Made by a program: the position numbers and the translations under genes. The notes beneath the pieces are model-generated. The model did not search any database and had not been told where the DNA came from. It saw only the letters and a program-made list of their open reading frames with translations. Positions 3,242 to 11,405 of a stretch of DNA of 26,335 bases are shown one piece after another (the first letter of the stretch is position 1; each line of letters opens with the position of its first letter). The stretch comes from a virus: positions 1-26,335 of the IMG/VR virus record IMGVR_UViG_3300027797_001314. One strand, given 5' to 3'.

Positions 3242-4717
3242 TTAATCTCGTTCGCTATTCAAATTAGCCAACATAGCACGTATTTTTGCGCCGCCTAGAT
3301 CTGCTTTAACCTTGGGTATATTAGCACCCTGTCTAGGATCAACTTCTAATATTTCTCCAGTTTCTGGATCAGTGGTTGTAGTCACAGCACTGGTACGTTT
3401 TAGTCCAGCTACAATACTACTAGGACCACCAGCTTTGCCCCCACCCTGATTCATACTACGATCATCGTACTCATCACCGGTATCAGTTATACGCAGGGTA
3501 TCTACATTAAAATCTAGTTCAACCTTTTGTCCAACACCTGCACTACTACGTGTTTTCATAAACTGGATCTGATAGCGGCCACGTTCTTTCATTGCCCTGC
3601 TGGTAAAGATACCAATTACATTATCTGCTGTCATAATCTTACTCAATCCGCCACTAATATGACTGTGATCAAACTCAATTTCTTCAACAGCACTACGATT
3701 CAGCTGACTCGCTGTTACTGTGATACATTGTGTTTCCATTGCCAGATTTCGAATCTCTTCTGACACATACTTGTCTTTTACGAACAGATCGCTGGGCGAC
3801 ACCTTCACAGACAAAGGCATCATCAAATCGAGGTAATCTATTAAAATTACGTCTGGTTTGACGCCTTTTTTGACCTGATATTCCTTCAAATAGGCTCGAA
3901 TATCGTTACAATTTTTACCGCTGGGCATATACTTGATTTGTATGCTTCCTGCGTTTCTTCCCATCATTTTAACTTTGAGTTCAACATCGTCAATGTTCTT
4001 AAATATCTCTCGAGTAGTAATACCAGTCATCATAGAGTCAATTCTCATGCCCACTAGACCTTCTGCTAATTCAAATGTAAGGTACAATACATTCATTCCT
4101 GCTAGTGCCCAGTTCACACCCAAATTAGCTAGAAACAAACTCTTGCCGCCCCCGGAGCCAGCACAAAAAATATTAAGCTCTCCTCGATTGAAACCGCCAT
4201 AAAGTTTTCTATCAATGCTAGGCCATCCTGTTGAAATCTGTCCATTACCATCTTTTAGTTTTGTAAGACGACCTCTAGGATCTTCAAAGTAATCAGTGCC
4301 CATATCCTTGTTTAAACTAATCTGGATAGCATCTTTGATCAGCTTTTCAACCGGATTGTATTCTCCCTTTTCTAACAGATCTGCACTTTGTAAAATTGCA
4401 CGTTCCAGAGCTTTATGACGACTAAAGTTTTCAAACTCGTCCATTAGCCATTCATAGTTTTCTTTGGGTAAGTTAACAGATTGTAGTTCTTTACCGCAAC
4501 TTGCGTTAACAATAGCCGCATCTGGTATTACTTTATAATCGTCTACATATTTGGTAATAAACTCTGCGGTTTCTTTTAACTTCTGATCAAAGTTCTCAGG
4601 ATCAAAAATATTCTGACAACGAGCAAAAGTTTCTGCATCACTTAGAAACATTTCTAAGTAAAGTTTTTGTATATCGTAGTTGTAATTGGGTTTATCTTTT
4701 TGTTCTTGTTTATTCAT
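3242..4717 (-). CDS. gp41: replicative DNA helicase, T4 gp41 (DnaB family)
   Basis: 491 aa, close to T4 gp41. The N-terminal 140 residues are helical, as in the DnaB/gp41 collar. The RecA-like core has Walker A AGSGGGKS (186-193), a catalytic acidic strand LTFELAEG, Walker B VILIDYLDLM (290-299), TASQLNRSA (335-343) and an arginine-finger segment FMKTRSSAG near 396-404. It forms a hexamer that unwinds the fork 5' to 3' on the lagging strand and works with primase. The gene overlaps the primase gene by 8 nt, so the primosome subunits are made together. The C-terminal 60 residues are polar and probably flexible. Confidence 0.95.
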   Translation of the reverse strand: MNKQEQKDKPNYNYDIQKLYLEMFLSDAETFARCQNIFDPENFDQKLKETAEFITKYVDDYKVIPDAAIVNASCGKELQSVNLPKENYEWLMDEFENFSRHKALERAILQSADLLEKGEYNPVEKLIKDAIQISLNKDMGTDYFEDPRGRLTKLKDGNGQISTGWPSIDRKLYGGFNRGELNIFCAGSGGGKSLFLANLGVNWALAGMNVLYLTFELAEGLVGMRIDSMMTGITTREIFKNIDDVELKVKMMGRNAGSIQIKYMPSGKNCNDIRAYLKEYQVKKGVKPDVILIDYLDLMMPLSVKVSPSDLFVKDKYVSEEIRNLAMETQCITVTASQLNRSAVEEIEFDHSHISGGLSKIMTADNVIGIFTSRAMKERGRYQIQFMKTRSSAGVGQKVELDFNVDTLRITDTGDEYDDRSMNQGGGKAGGPSSIVAGLKRTSAVTTTTDPETGEILEVDPRQGANIPKVKADLGGAKIRAMLANLNSERD

Positions 4718-5711
4718 GTATTGCTTCCAGTTTTTTCTTTAGTAACTGTATTTTTATCTCGTTTGTTTCTCGGTAGTGCAAGATCGCGGATAGTGTATAC
4801 AATCTACCATATTTCTTTACTGCGTCTGCTACGTCTTTAACTTCGTCGCCCCAAGGAGGTAAACTCACACTCCACTTATTTTCTAAGGCGGCTTTGAGCA
4901 TAACTGCTCCGGCCCTGTCTCGATCTGGCACAACAATAACTTCTCTGCTTAATGCGTTAAGGCGCATAATTTGTGTATTGTTAGGACTATTATGCATTAC
5001 AGCACATCCATCTACAGCGATAGCATCAAACTGTCCTTCAACTACTATAACATATTTTCTATTGGTAGTTTGTGCGTCTATATTAAACACATAGCCAGGC
5101 TGTGCATCTGTTAGATACTTTGGTTTACCTTCAGTTATTTTACGTCCTGTATAACCAACTATCATACCGTCTTGATAAAATGGTATAATAACTCGATCCG
5201 AATATCCTGCCGTAGGCGACCACATCCAGTTGTACCAATCTAGTTCCATACCTCGGCCTAGCACATATTCTACTATTTTTCCAAGGTCCTCTGCTATGTC
5301 TGGCAAGTATGCAGTATTGATCCACTCCATGACTGGTAACGTTGCTTCGGGTAAGTCTATTTGATGCAGATTAAAGTCTAAAGGCTTCTCAACCTTAGGC
5401 ATGTCTTCTTTATTCTTTAATGCTTCAAGACCGAGTTTCTGTATTTCAATCTCAGGTAATCCCATCCATGAAAATAAGTTTTTAGTATTCTTACTTAGTA
5501 GTTTTCCAGGTACCCATCCTGCTTTAAAGTTACAGTTAAAACAGTGAAATTGGAATCCATCATTGTTAAACAACATGCCGCCGCGTTGTCTAGTATCTTG
5601 CTTTTCTCCATTATGGTGACAGCAAGGCGCATTGAAACTGATCCAACCGCTTGGAGTAGATTTGCGTTTAGGTGGTAATAGATTTTGTACCGTTGCTTGA
5701 ATCAGATTCAT
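4710..5711 (-). CDS. gp61: DNA primase, T4 gp61
   Basis: 333 aa, near the T4 length. The N-terminus has a zinc-binding module with C30, C31, H32 and H33 followed by HCFNC (C57, C60). The Toprim catalytic part has VVEGQFDA (E225) and VPDRDRAG (D263, D265), which bind the metals for RNA primer synthesis. It makes primers on lagging-strand template and docks on the gp41 hexamer, whose gene follows with an 8-nt overlap. It sits 9 nt after the stop of a tail-type structural gene, so read-through from a late-type promoter at 6566-6573 would also express it. No strong Shine-Dalgarno site is seen. Confidence 0.9.
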   Translation of the reverse strand: MNLIQATVQNLLPPKRKSTPSGWISFNAPCCHHNGEKQDTRQRGGMLFNNDGFQFHCFNCNFKAGWVPGKLLSKNTKNLFSWMGLPEIEIQKLGLEALKNKEDMPKVEKPLDFNLHQIDLPEATLPVMEWINTAYLPDIAEDLGKIVEYVLGRGMELDWYNWMWSPTAGYSDRVIIPFYQDGMIVGYTGRKITEGKPKYLTDAQPGYVFNIDAQTTNRKYVIVVEGQFDAIAVDGCAVMHNSPNNTQIMRLNALSREVIVVPDRDRAGAVMLKAALENKWSVSLPPWGDEVKDVADAVKKYGRLYTLSAILHYRETNEIKIQLLKKKLEAIHE

Positions 5712-6580: not shown

Positions 6581-6961
6581 ATGACGACAAAAGATAGCTT
6601 TCAGCAAAACTACCCGTTTATGACCTGTATCAGGTGTAATGGGACAGAATACTTAGGTATAATCATCAACTTCGATAATCAAGTGGTCAGCATCTACGAC
6701 TATGCTGTTATTAAGACTGTTAATCAGTCTCACTTTTTAGGACTAGGTGATTCTTGGTGGTGGGAAAGCAACCGAAAAATACCAATCAACATATTTTTAA
6801 AAAATGATATGATAGTATACAAACAGTATATTAAAACTTTTAACAGTAAAGATGTTGAAGTAGTTTTTGGCCCAACAGTCAACCTAAGTGATATTGCTGA
6901 AAAACGTATTAAGCGTAGATCGATCCAGCTAGTAAGAAATCCTAAGAAAATCCGTAACTAA
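6581..6961 (+). CDS. conserved phage protein of unknown function, 126 aa
   Basis: One of only three plus-strand genes. The protein has a beta-rich first half (RCNGTEYLGIIINFDNQVVS), then GLGDSWWWESNRKIPINIFL, a distinctive block around residues 55-74, and a basic C-terminal tail (KRIKRRSIQLVRNPKK). The tail suggests nucleic-acid or protein contact. I recognise it as a conserved hypothetical of marine T4-like phages, without a function. A TATAAATA box lies 39 nt upstream of its ATG. Its 3' end overlaps the convergent DnaE-like gene by 20 nt. Confidence 0.75.
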   Translation: MTTKDSFQQNYPFMTCIRCNGTEYLGIIINFDNQVVSIYDYAVIKTVNQSHFLGLGDSWWWESNRKIPINIFLKNDMIVYKQYIKTFNSKDVEVVFGPTVNLSDIAEKRIKRRSIQLVRNPKKIRN

Positions 6962-7520
6962 TACCTTCGCAGATAAGATTCATCTGCACAATAACAGCCA
7001 TTGCATACGCCATTGCATGAGCCTTCTTAAAGAAATATTCATCGCCTTGTGGTTTTGTCCAGACCTCTGCGGTTATTGTATTCCAATCTTTCCCTATCAA
7101 GTAACGTTTTGCGGGTCGGATCATTGCCAACACCGCTGCCAGTTGTTGTACAGAAGTCGGTTTCGTCTGCCTTAAAATCTGTCCATGACCGTTGACGTGA
7201 AATAGCAAATTGACAAAATCGTCCTGTTCTAGTAAGTCCCATAGTGGCTCAGCCTCCATTAATCTAACAAGGTGCTCTTCATCTTTAACACCTTCATAAA
7301 TTCCAACATTTAAAAAATCAATTTTAAAATATTTGCGATCTTCTGCTTCTTTATATTCGATACTTGCAGTACCAGTTAACGGATTGTACGGAATAGAATG
7401 ACAATATACACCGGTATTGTGTTTTTTAGAAGTTCCATCTTTGTCCACGATAGTCGCAGGAACATGCTTGATAATATCAAGTATCTTTTTCCTATCTGCA
7501 AAGTCGATATCAATGTCCAT
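6942..7520 (-). CDS. miniature DnaE/PolC-like protein (PolIII alpha palm and fingers motifs)
   Basis: 192 aa. It starts with MDIDIDF, matching the PDxDxDF active-site motif of bacterial PolIII alpha. TGVYCHS (36-42) matches the conserved TGVHAAG segment, KIDFLNV (66-72) matches KFDFLGL with the third catalytic Asp (D68), LAAVLAMIRPAKR (127-139) matches the IALVALFRPGP fingers motif, and FFKKAHAMAYA (163-173) matches FNKSHAAAYA. All five are in the DnaE order, but the whole is about one sixth of DnaE length. PHP, tau-binding and OB parts are absent. Whether it polymerises, binds DNA or only regulates is unknown. It overlaps the 71-aa gene upstream by 11 nt in a gene cluster with the probable clamp loader and UvsW. 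The relation to DnaE is my motif reading, not an alignment. Confidence 0.65.
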   Translation of the reverse strand: MDIDIDFADRKKILDIIKHVPATIVDKDGTSKKHNTGVYCHSIPYNPLTGTASIEYKEAEDRKYFKIDFLNVGIYEGVKDEEHLVRLMEAEPLWDLLEQDDFVNLLFHVNGHGQILRQTKPTSVQQLAAVLAMIRPAKRYLIGKDWNTITAEVWTKPQGDEYFFKKAHAMAYAMAVIVQMNLICEGISYGFS

Positions 7521-7725
7521 ATTTTAGTGCTACAAATGATGCATATTTTTCTGTGTAAAATGTGAATACTGTATGAGTTGGTATTTCGCCAATCATCTCG
7601 TCCCACCTACTTTGATTGTATGCAAAGTCAAAATCTTTACCTTGTATCAATCCGTCCTCTCTTATTTCTCGAACAATGTCCATAATTTCATTTGGTGTCT
7701 TATAAAATATCTTTATACTAACCAT
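7510..7725 (-). CDS. small conserved phage protein, 71 aa
   Basis: The sequence (MVSIKIFYKTPNEIMDIVRE, then FDFAYNQSRWDE, then VFTFYTEKYASFVALKYG) suggests a small alpha/beta fold. I recognise the pattern as a conserved hypothetical of marine T4-like phages that travels with the DnaE-like gene. It overlaps that gene by 11 nt and lies 1 nt after the stop of the zinc-finger gene, so all three are likely co-translated. A shared function with its neighbours is possible but not shown. Confidence 0.65.
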   Translation of the reverse strand: MVSIKIFYKTPNEIMDIVREIREDGLIQGKDFDFAYNQSRWDEMIGEIPTHTVFTFYTEKYASFVALKYGH

Positions 7726-9447: not shown

Positions 9448-9951
9448 TCACCAACACTTTGTATAATCTACTATCTCACATTGCCGGCTAACTTCTTTAA
9501 CAAAATAAGCACACAATGGATTGTCGCCACCATGTAACGGAGTACACAAGAGCTGTCCGGGTCGCATTTTTGGAAAGTACCATTTAACGTCTTGGTATAC
9601 ATCAATGATATCAATATCGTGGAATTCTGGTCTAAAACTAGTTAATGGATTAAAACAGTATGTTCTAAATCCTCTATCATTTAAACTAGTAATTGGAAGG
9701 ATTTCCATATCTGGTCCTTCTGGGTCTCCAACGATAGTACACCAATCTAGTGGCATTGTAAGTTCGTGAGGTCCGATCCTAAGCACTACTGCTGGTCCTG
9801 TAAAACTTTCAAGGAAAATTAAAGGTATATAGAAGTAATCGGGATTCTGGTTATCGCTGTTGTCAAGTACAGCAAACCTTACATCGTCTTCGATTTCGTC
9901 TGGTAGATCATTAAGATAAAATGTTTTATTATCGAGCGTTAAAATCTGCAT
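9448..9951 (-). CDS. conserved phage protein, 167 aa, downstream of UvsW
   Basis: It is acidic and beta-rich, with IPLIFLESFTGPAVVLRIG (residues near 42-60), MPLDWCTIVGDPE, ITSLNDRGFRTYCFNP and a C-terminal VKWYFPKMRPGQLLCTPL. I recognise this as a well conserved hypothetical of marine T4-like phages with no assigned function. The start overlaps the uvsW stop (TAATG), which suggests coupled expression and perhaps a role beside UvsW. Confidence 0.7.
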   Translation of the reverse strand: MQILTLDNKTFYLNDLPDEIEDDVRFAVLDNSDNQNPDYFYIPLIFLESFTGPAVVLRIGPHELTMPLDWCTIVGDPEGPDMEILPITSLNDRGFRTYCFNPLTSFRPEFHDIDIIDVYQDVKWYFPKMRPGQLLCTPLHGGDNPLCAYFVKEVSRQCEIVDYTKCW

Positions 9952-11405
9952 TATTGGTATTTTACCTTTTCTATTGTAAACGGATATTTGGCATCTTTAT
10001 AGAATTTCTTTCTTTCTGTTAGATGTCTCTTTGCGTATTTTGAAGAGGCCGTGATATCCCAGATTTGTACGAAGTCTTTATCTTCTGCTTTTCTAACGCC
10101 TCGCCCAATGCTTTGTATAACGCGGGTAAAGCTCTTTCCGGGCTCCAACATAACCAGATTAAAAATCCTTGGGATATTAAGACCAACAGCGGCCACGCCG
10201 TAAGTCGCCACAATAATCTTGTTAGTAGCAGTTTTAACTTCGTCATACTCTTCCTTGCGTTTTGCAGATTTTACTTCACCTGAGATAAAAACACTATCTT
10301 CAATAATACTTGTTATTATACGCCCTGTTTCAATTCTGTCAACCAACACTAGAGCGTTCCCGTTTTCTGCAATTGCGGTAATTAATCCAATTATATAGTC
10401 TAGTCTAGTTTCATCAGTTACCAAGTATTTTAATTCTTCGGGGTAACTGCCAAACTCTTTCCATTCTGCTGTTTGAACAATATTAACATGACAATTAGAT
10501 AACACGCCTTTGTCTTGTAGTTCTTTAGCAGTTACACGACCAACAACTTCTCCTAGACTAGCACGTAAACTTTGATACTCAAAATCCTGTTTTGGAACCG
10601 TTCCTGTAAGTCCCCAACGTATAGGTGCATTGGCTAGATTATGTGTTAATAATTTTTTTAATACTTCTGCCTTTGCCTGATGTACTTCGTCTACAATGAC
10701 TGTTTGAACCCCGTCTAAGAATTCAGCTAGTGATAATAGCTCGCTGTCATTTTGTGATTTTTTGTCTAAAATATTGAGACTTTGCCAGGTGCAAATAGTA
10801 TGTGTTTTTCCTAGATTTTTTCTATCACCAAAATACACACCAACGTCTAATCCCACATTAATAAAATCTTCTTCAGTTTGCAATACCAAATCTTTGTTTG
10901 GAACTATCACAATTGACCGGCCATATTTTTCCACAATTTTTGCCAAAGTTGCGGTCATAATAGTTTTGCCTGCACCAGTTGCAACTTCTTGTAATGCCTG
11001 AGGATTCTTTAAAAAATTGTTAACAACATTAACCTGATCGTCTCTTAATCGAATTGGATGTCCTTCAAACCTATGACCTTTAGGCCAGCATTTTTCACCC
11101 CAAAAATCCTCAAAAATCTCAGAAAATTCCAGGTTAGGACTGGTACGGTGATCTTCAACTTCTATATGATAATTTTTATTTTCAAGTTGGACCAGTACAT
11201 CTTCGAGCATCGACAAGTATGTTGTTCCGCCGAGACCAAAAAATGGAATTGAACCATCCCATCTACCTAATTTATAACTAGGACGATACCTTGCTGTGGG
11301 GTCTTCATACTTGAATTTCTTAACTAGGTATTTTCTTGTTTCTAAATCAAGGCCTTCAATCTTAATGTTTACTTCATCTTTGATGATAACTTTACACGTT
11401 GGCAA
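9951..11405 (-). CDS. uvsW: UvsW, recombination and fork-regression DNA helicase (SF2)
   Basis: 484 aa (T4 UvsW is about 500). SF2 motifs in order: motif I ATGAGKT (142-148), motif II DEVH (239-242), motif III LTGT (266-269) and motif VI QSIGRGVRKAED near 430-441. The N-terminal 100 residues match the UvsW substrate-recognition domain in position (YEDPTARYRPSYKLGRWDG). In T4 it unwinds branched DNA and R-loops, regresses stalled forks and ends origin-dependent initiation. It overlaps the 405-aa gene upstream by 14 nt and lies in a UvsX-UvsY-UvsW recombination cluster. Confidence 0.95.
   Translation of the reverse strand: MPTCKVIIKDEVNIKIEGLDLETRKYLVKKFKYEDPTARYRPSYKLGRWDGSIPFFGLGGTTYLSMLEDVLVQLENKNYHIEVEDHRTSPNLEFSEIFEDFWGEKCWPKGHRFEGHPIRLRDDQVNVVNNFLKNPQALQEVATGAGKTIMTATLAKIVEKYGRSIVIVPNKDLVLQTEEDFINVGLDVGVYFGDRKNLGKTHTICTWQSLNILDKKSQNDSELLSLAEFLDGVQTVIVDEVHQAKAEVLKKLLTHNLANAPIRWGLTGTVPKQDFEYQSLRASLGEVVGRVTAKELQDKGVLSNCHVNIVQTAEWKEFGSYPEELKYLVTDETRLDYIIGLITAIAENGNALVLVDRIETGRIITSIIEDSVFISGEVKSAKRKEEYDEVKTATNKIIVATYGVAAVGLNIPRIFNLVMLEPGKSFTRVIQSIGRGVRKAEDKDFVQIWDITASSKYAKRHLTERKKFYKDAKYPFTIEKVKYQ

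Follow-up and report, generated by a model that had tools for sequence, protein, structure and literature searches.

Genomic context of the gene

The stretch of viral DNA analysed here, which is 26,335 nucleotides long and will be referred to as the window, contains on its minus strand at positions 6942–7520 an intact open reading frame (ORF), which starts with an ATG codon, has no internal stop and encodes a protein of 192 aa. Based upon its match in PHROGs to phrog_11778 (annotated "DNA polymerase"; E = 4.6e-66), an AlphaFold model and Foldseek searches, the gene is annotated here as the C-terminal half (C half) of a minimal DNA polymerase III alpha that is split over two genes. Its start, MDIDIDF, sits one codon after an in-frame stop. 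Upstream of it, also on the minus strand, lies an ORF of 71 aa (positions 7510–7725), which has no PHROG or Pfam match and no GS motif, and which extends, with its stop codon, 11 bases into the start of the polymerase gene; in view of this overlap, an earlier reading of this DNA from its letters alone (the sequence-only reading) was correct in describing the gene as tightly coupled to its neighbour. At the other end, the polymerase gene shares its last 20 bases with a conserved convergent gene of unknown function on the plus strand (positions 6581–6961; phrog_11637). In nearly all annotated relatives, too, an antisense convergent gene is seen 3' of the C half.

The window as a whole represents a T4-like replication and packaging segment, which agrees with the T4-type replication setting that had been assigned to it. 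It encodes a gp41/DnaB-type helicase (positions 3242–4717, minus strand; phrog_19, E = 1.3e-75), a gp61-type primase (positions 4710–5711, minus strand; phrog_47, E = 1.5e-40), a UvsW-type helicase (positions 9951–11405, minus strand; identified by a PHROG/Pfam scan of the window ORFs and by its synteny with RaK2 and 121Q), UvsY, UvsX, a single-stranded DNA-binding protein (SSB) and the terminase large subunit. The gene order UvsW, several small genes, C half, convergent gene, structural protein, primase and helicase is common to the window and the phages RaK2, 121Q and GAP32. No DnaQ/epsilon-like exonuclease was recognised in the window. In 121Q, RaK2, GAP32 and XacN1, genes annotated as DnaQ/epsilon-like exonuclease or as "DNA polymerase III" lie near the C half, and on the basis of these annotated neighbours an exonuclease partner for the split polymerase is possible.

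A family B polymerase is present in all 11 of the 11 relatives that carry the C half, and the split enzyme is thus not the sole polymerase of these phages. The family B motifs A, B and C are intact in RaK2, Phosso and XacN1, and in a fourth genome an apparent intein divides motif C: in the Salicola phage SCTP-2 (MF360958, positions 178500–182500, minus strand) the family B ORF reaches 1089 aa because its motif C is interrupted (...YGDS-VTHDTIISTNNGEYTIEKL...NNILLKN-TDSSYFS) at the YGD/TDS site by an insert that has the appearance of an in-frame intein and measures roughly 140 aa.

Conserved motifs and residues of the C half

Five motifs of the bacterial enzyme follow one another in this protein in the DnaE order, at the positions where they had been noted before, and all of them could be mapped on E. 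coli DnaE. At the extreme N-terminus are the metal-binding aspartates D2-I-D4-I-D6 (positions 7503–7517, minus strand, as for all residues given here), which correspond to D401, D403 and D405 of E. coli DnaE (PDFDVDF), D405 being the third aspartate within this motif. They are followed by H34 in KHNTGVY (positions 7419–7421), corresponding by hhalign to H511 of DnaE (KHAGGVV), and by K66-I67-D68 in FKIDFLN (positions 7317–7325), corresponding to K553 and D555 (KFDFLG), where D68 is the third catalytic aspartate. The R135-P136-A-K138 sequence (IRPAK; positions 7107–7118) aligns in hhalign with R639 and P640 in the FRPGP motif of DnaE, and F164-K-K-A-H168 (FFKKAHAMAYA; positions 7017–7031) corresponds to FNKSH with K758 and H760 (FNKSHSAAYA).

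The three catalytic aspartates of the DnaE/PolC type (PDxDxDF and KxDFL) are therefore all present, as the sequence-only reading had proposed. In a set of 81 C-half sequences, obtained by thinning the relatives to less than 85% mutual identity, the residues D2, D4, D6, H34, K66, D68, R135, P136, K138, K165 and H168 are invariant. The gene is also under purifying selection, with dN/dS values of about 0.06–0.26 by the Nei-Gojobori method in comparisons with four relatives, and the view that this intact frame is not a decaying one is upheld.

The protein is strongly reduced in comparison to DnaE. It ends at the FKKAH helix after 192 aa, and the PHP, thumb, beta-binding, tau-binding and OB regions as well as the long fingers are gone, most of which had been pointed out earlier. 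In comparison to DnaE, the aspartates lie much closer to H34, and RPAK much closer to FFKKAH; in the part that corresponds to the fingers, from the RP motif to FKKAH, there are about 28 residues versus about 118 in E. coli DnaE, and by sequence comparison the LRRAMGKKK segment of DnaE has no counterpart here. With fingers so reduced, nucleotide selection may be lowered or altered. The GS motif (GRGS) is likewise absent from the 192-aa protein, because the chain begins at the DxD strand.

Homology and predicted fold

When the C half was searched as a single sequence, its relationship to Pol III alpha was only weakly indicated. The match to the Pfam DNA_pol3_finger family was non-significant (E = 0.054), no DnaE match was found by phmmer against PDB, and the match to phrog_405, the full-length DnaE family, which the N-terminal half described below also matches weakly, was a weak one (E = 0.006). 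Because the single-sequence PDB and Pfam searches are non-significant, profiles are needed to see the homology. A profile built from 23 diverse relatives and searched against 177,635 distinct PDB sequences gave nine matches with E < 1, eight of which were to Pol III alpha over several collinear stretches; the aligned blocks comprised MPDIDIDF, the region ahead of KxDFL through the RP motif, and YxFxKSHAxxY. The homology of the C half to the palm of Pol III alpha is thus clear at the family level.

The AlphaFold model of the C half, based upon an alignment of 81 rows, has a pLDDT of 91.6. Its predicted fold was compared with PDB by Foldseek, the check proposed earlier against the DnaE/PolC palm, and the best ten matches were all to Pol III alpha, with Thermus aquaticus entries at the top (E = 2e-3, probability 0.99–1.00). 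For the N-terminal half the model has a pLDDT of 94.4, and the first 17 Foldseek matches in PDB are all Pol III-type polymerase structures, the best ten of them Pol III alpha. The TM-scores of the two models are low (0.30–0.45; about 0.3 for the C half) and the rmsd values are high, so that neither half alone gives a rigid-body superposition on Pol III alpha, and the geometry of the active site cannot be claimed from the separate models. For the C half, a low TM-score can be expected of half a palm without the rest of the enzyme.

A separately encoded N-terminal half

In all 11 of the 11 jumbo-phage genomes that carry the C half, a second short ORF is found that matches positions of about 16–96 of PF07733 (DNA_pol3_alpha). 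This gene, which we refer to as the N half, belongs to phrog_11127, the C half being phrog_11778. Eight genomes were examined in detail; in each of them it is annotated as a gene of 169–182 aa, at a distance of 15 to 224 kb from its C-half partner, and in most of the eight the clamp loader lies nearby, together with a GroES-like or head-morphogenesis gene. The C half of the relatives adjoins the primase and helicase.

In enzymes with the Pol beta fold, a GS motif is needed just ahead of the DxD strand, and this motif (GRGS) holds the triphosphate of the dNTP. It is present near the C-terminus of the N half, which reads ...GxGRGSSxxSYxLxLIGxHxVxSxxYxLDxxEFLK-stop, and the GxGRGSS sequence is invariant in 72 N halves; in E. 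coli DnaE the GRGS residues occupy positions 361–364. The N half ends at the FLK or FLR that in DnaE precedes PDFDVDF. The complementarity of the two halves is exact by these computations: on E. coli DnaE the N half aligns with positions 318–393, its C-terminal stretch quoted above standing for 322–393, and the C half runs from 400 to about 767; on a mycobacterial DnaE the last N-half position is 407 and the first C-half position 413. In a scan of viral contigs, all of the 81 N-half ORFs found (81/81) end within six residues of the split point and none of them (0/81) runs past it into a fused C half, nor was a C half detected within the N-half loci of these 81 ORFs, which span roughly 10 kb (about 5 kb either way). 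The borders of the halves are identical across hundreds of environmental contigs. The 71-aa ORF upstream of the C half in the window was also considered as the missing half, and it was rejected since it contains no GRGS motif and has no PHROG or Pfam match.

The two halves also occur together. In tblastn searches that were run independently with each half against 50,697 phage records, each half found 63 records, and among the 60 matches listed from each search 59 accessions were in common. The exception on the C side without a listed N half is a partial record of 109 kb, and RAS14, which was listed on the N side only, may be among the three C-half records beyond the 60 listed. The divergence of the N halves over eleven genomes is correlated with that of the C halves (r = 0.91; 0 of 5000 permutations), and such a correlation is also expected from the shared ancestry of the phages. 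No N half was found in the 26-kb window contig, which is itself a fragment, and for the phage from which the window derives we therefore infer a partner lying outside this contig. Both halves are carried by a 181-kb contig, in which the C half has 70% identity with that of the window.

Interpretation and alternative explanations

Our favoured explanation, to which we would assign a probability of roughly 0.85, is that the gene at 6942–7520 encodes the C-terminal half of a minimal nucleotidyltransferase of family C (Pol III alpha type), which is made up of two polypeptides and belongs to T4-like jumbo phages. The sequence-only reading had described the protein as a miniature Pol III alpha; its homology to the palm of this enzyme stands, but the protein is not a miniature by itself, being only the C-terminal half, with the GS motif carried by the other. 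Because that motif sits on a separate, distant gene in every complete genome searched, the 192-aa protein is not a stand-alone mini-polymerase. In the proposed mechanism, the C half would supply the metal ligands D2, D4 and D68 together with a reduced template/primer-binding part (IRPAK, FKKAH), and the N half, encoded tens to hundreds of kb away, would supply GRGS(S) for the nucleotide triphosphate. We infer that the two chains associate non-covalently to form one Pol beta-like palm with one active site; as the split point falls in a loop (DnaE positions 394–399) ahead of the DxD strand, the core need not be disturbed. As regards the biological role, the phage would most likely use the split enzyme as an additional DNA polymerase alongside its intact family B (gp43-type) replicase, and repair, gap filling or the synthesis of one strand are possible jobs for it.

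That the pair is a true DNA polymerase, carrying out template-directed synthesis, is slightly favoured. This claim is put with reserve because fingers of about 30 residues take the place of about 120 and the LRRAMGKKK counterpart is absent, and after such trimming the enzyme may be slow, non-processive or some other kind of nucleotidyltransferase. The last possibility provides the most substantial alternative, to which we give perhaps one chance in a few: the halves assemble, but into a non-processive nucleotidyltransferase (for end-tailing, nucleotide modification or priming support) instead of a template-directed DNA polymerase. The loss of all accessory domains and of most of the fingers, along with the LRRAMGKKK segment, is compatible with such an enzyme, as are the catalytic residues, which are invariant all the same, and the family B polymerase that is kept, so that DNA replication can do without the split enzyme. 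However, the DNA-contacting motifs KHNTGVY, IRPAK and FKKAH are retained in the DnaE order, and both genes lie beside replisome genes, the C half next to those for the primase and helicase and the N half next to that for the clamp loader.

The suggestion made earlier that the protein could be a decoy or a repurposed DNA-binding fold corresponds to a catalytically dead scaffold, in which the polymerase fold binds DNA or a replisome partner. The low similarity to DnaE, the extreme reduction and the lack of a GS motif in the C-half chain are in line with it, but a dead scaffold is expected to lose some of its catalytic residues, and the invariance of the aspartates and of the partner GRGSS in very diverse relatives makes this explanation improbable. 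Trans-splicing of an intein- or intron-interrupted polymerase gene has the least to recommend it and merits hardly any weight. Inteins and homing elements often insert in catalytic genes, and the split point does lie in one; genes for Hef-type homing endonucleases are also present in the region in some relatives. However, no intein sequence flanks the split: the N half ends at the DnaE border, and M(P)DIDIDF opens the C half. The next genes in PA5oct and RaK2 begin within 13–65 bases, leaving no room for an intron; on these gene borders the explanation is largely refuted. Only a little more credible for this gene is the decay of a full-length DnaE taken from a host, which would account for its shortness relative to DnaE and for the description of the N half as "truncated" in a genome paper (PMC5259590). 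As a description of the family it is refuted by the same borders in hundreds of contigs, the purifying selection and the strict co-occurrence of the partners.

Relationship to known polymerases and significance

A split enzyme of this kind is the subject of a 2021 paper in Viruses (13:63), reportedly by Iyer, Anantharaman, Krishnan, Burroughs and Aravind. According to the passages of this work drawn upon here (Iyer et al., Viruses 2021, 13:63, PMC7824862), the split polymerase of the group 2.2 jumbo phages had already been described from sequence and was proposed to work beside the family B polymerase of the same phages. The two-gene arrangement is thus already known and explained at the sequence level. 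The two-gene split and the co-existing family B polymerase, both as seen in the relatives, and the phage group (RaK2-, 121Q- and Atu_ph07-like) are those of that system (phrog_11127 + phrog_11778), and nothing essential differs; the window would be a member from a metagenome, with its partner gene presumably located beyond the 26-kb contig. The window has the C-terminal unit of group 2.2, which begins at the DxD strand and holds the subdomain for binding Mg2+ and template. The N half alone had been noted earlier, as "truncated" in CBB (PMC5259590) and as a Pol III alpha subunit in Atu_ph07 (PMC6102473). A search of the open-access literature, with subscription journals outside its coverage, found no experimental follow-up on the split enzyme. 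No caveat concerning the reduced fingers or the LRRAMGKKK segment was met in the consulted passages of PMC7824862.

Among the other family C enzymes, bacterial DnaE (E. coli) has GRGS, PDxDxDF, KHxxGV, KxDFL, RP and FxKxHxxxYA in the same one order, and the predicted fold of each half is closest to Pol III alpha. Unlike E. coli DnaE, which is of 1160 aa, the phage enzyme would consist of two polypeptides of about 370 aa in all and has no PHP, thumb/beta-binding, OB or tau-binding parts. PolC (Geobacillus, 3f2b) belongs to the same palm family, but the N-half model matches it more weakly (probability 0.41) and DnaE structures fit better; it also has an exonuclease insertion and long fingers, unlike the split enzyme. 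The full-length Pol III alpha of the group 3.2 phages (phage G type; phrog_405) is likewise a phage-encoded family C polymerase. It differs from the split enzyme in being one long chain with a PHP domain, and it is the main replicase in the account given in the consulted part of PMC7824862.

The present work adds the strict split point, the invariance of the three aspartates in 81 sequences, the purifying selection, the congruent divergence of the N and C halves and the caveat regarding the fingers. The family is widespread, being found in hundreds of environmental contigs. The odds appear evenly balanced that the two proteins form a family C polymerase of exceptionally small size (about 370 aa), which is active without PHP, thumb and full fingers and has a job distinct from that of the family B replicase. 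If the pair is active, it would set a minimum for a Pol III-type active site and provide a palm that works as two separately encoded chains, and the split enzyme offers a clean test of why giant T4-like phages have retained two polymerases that are not related.
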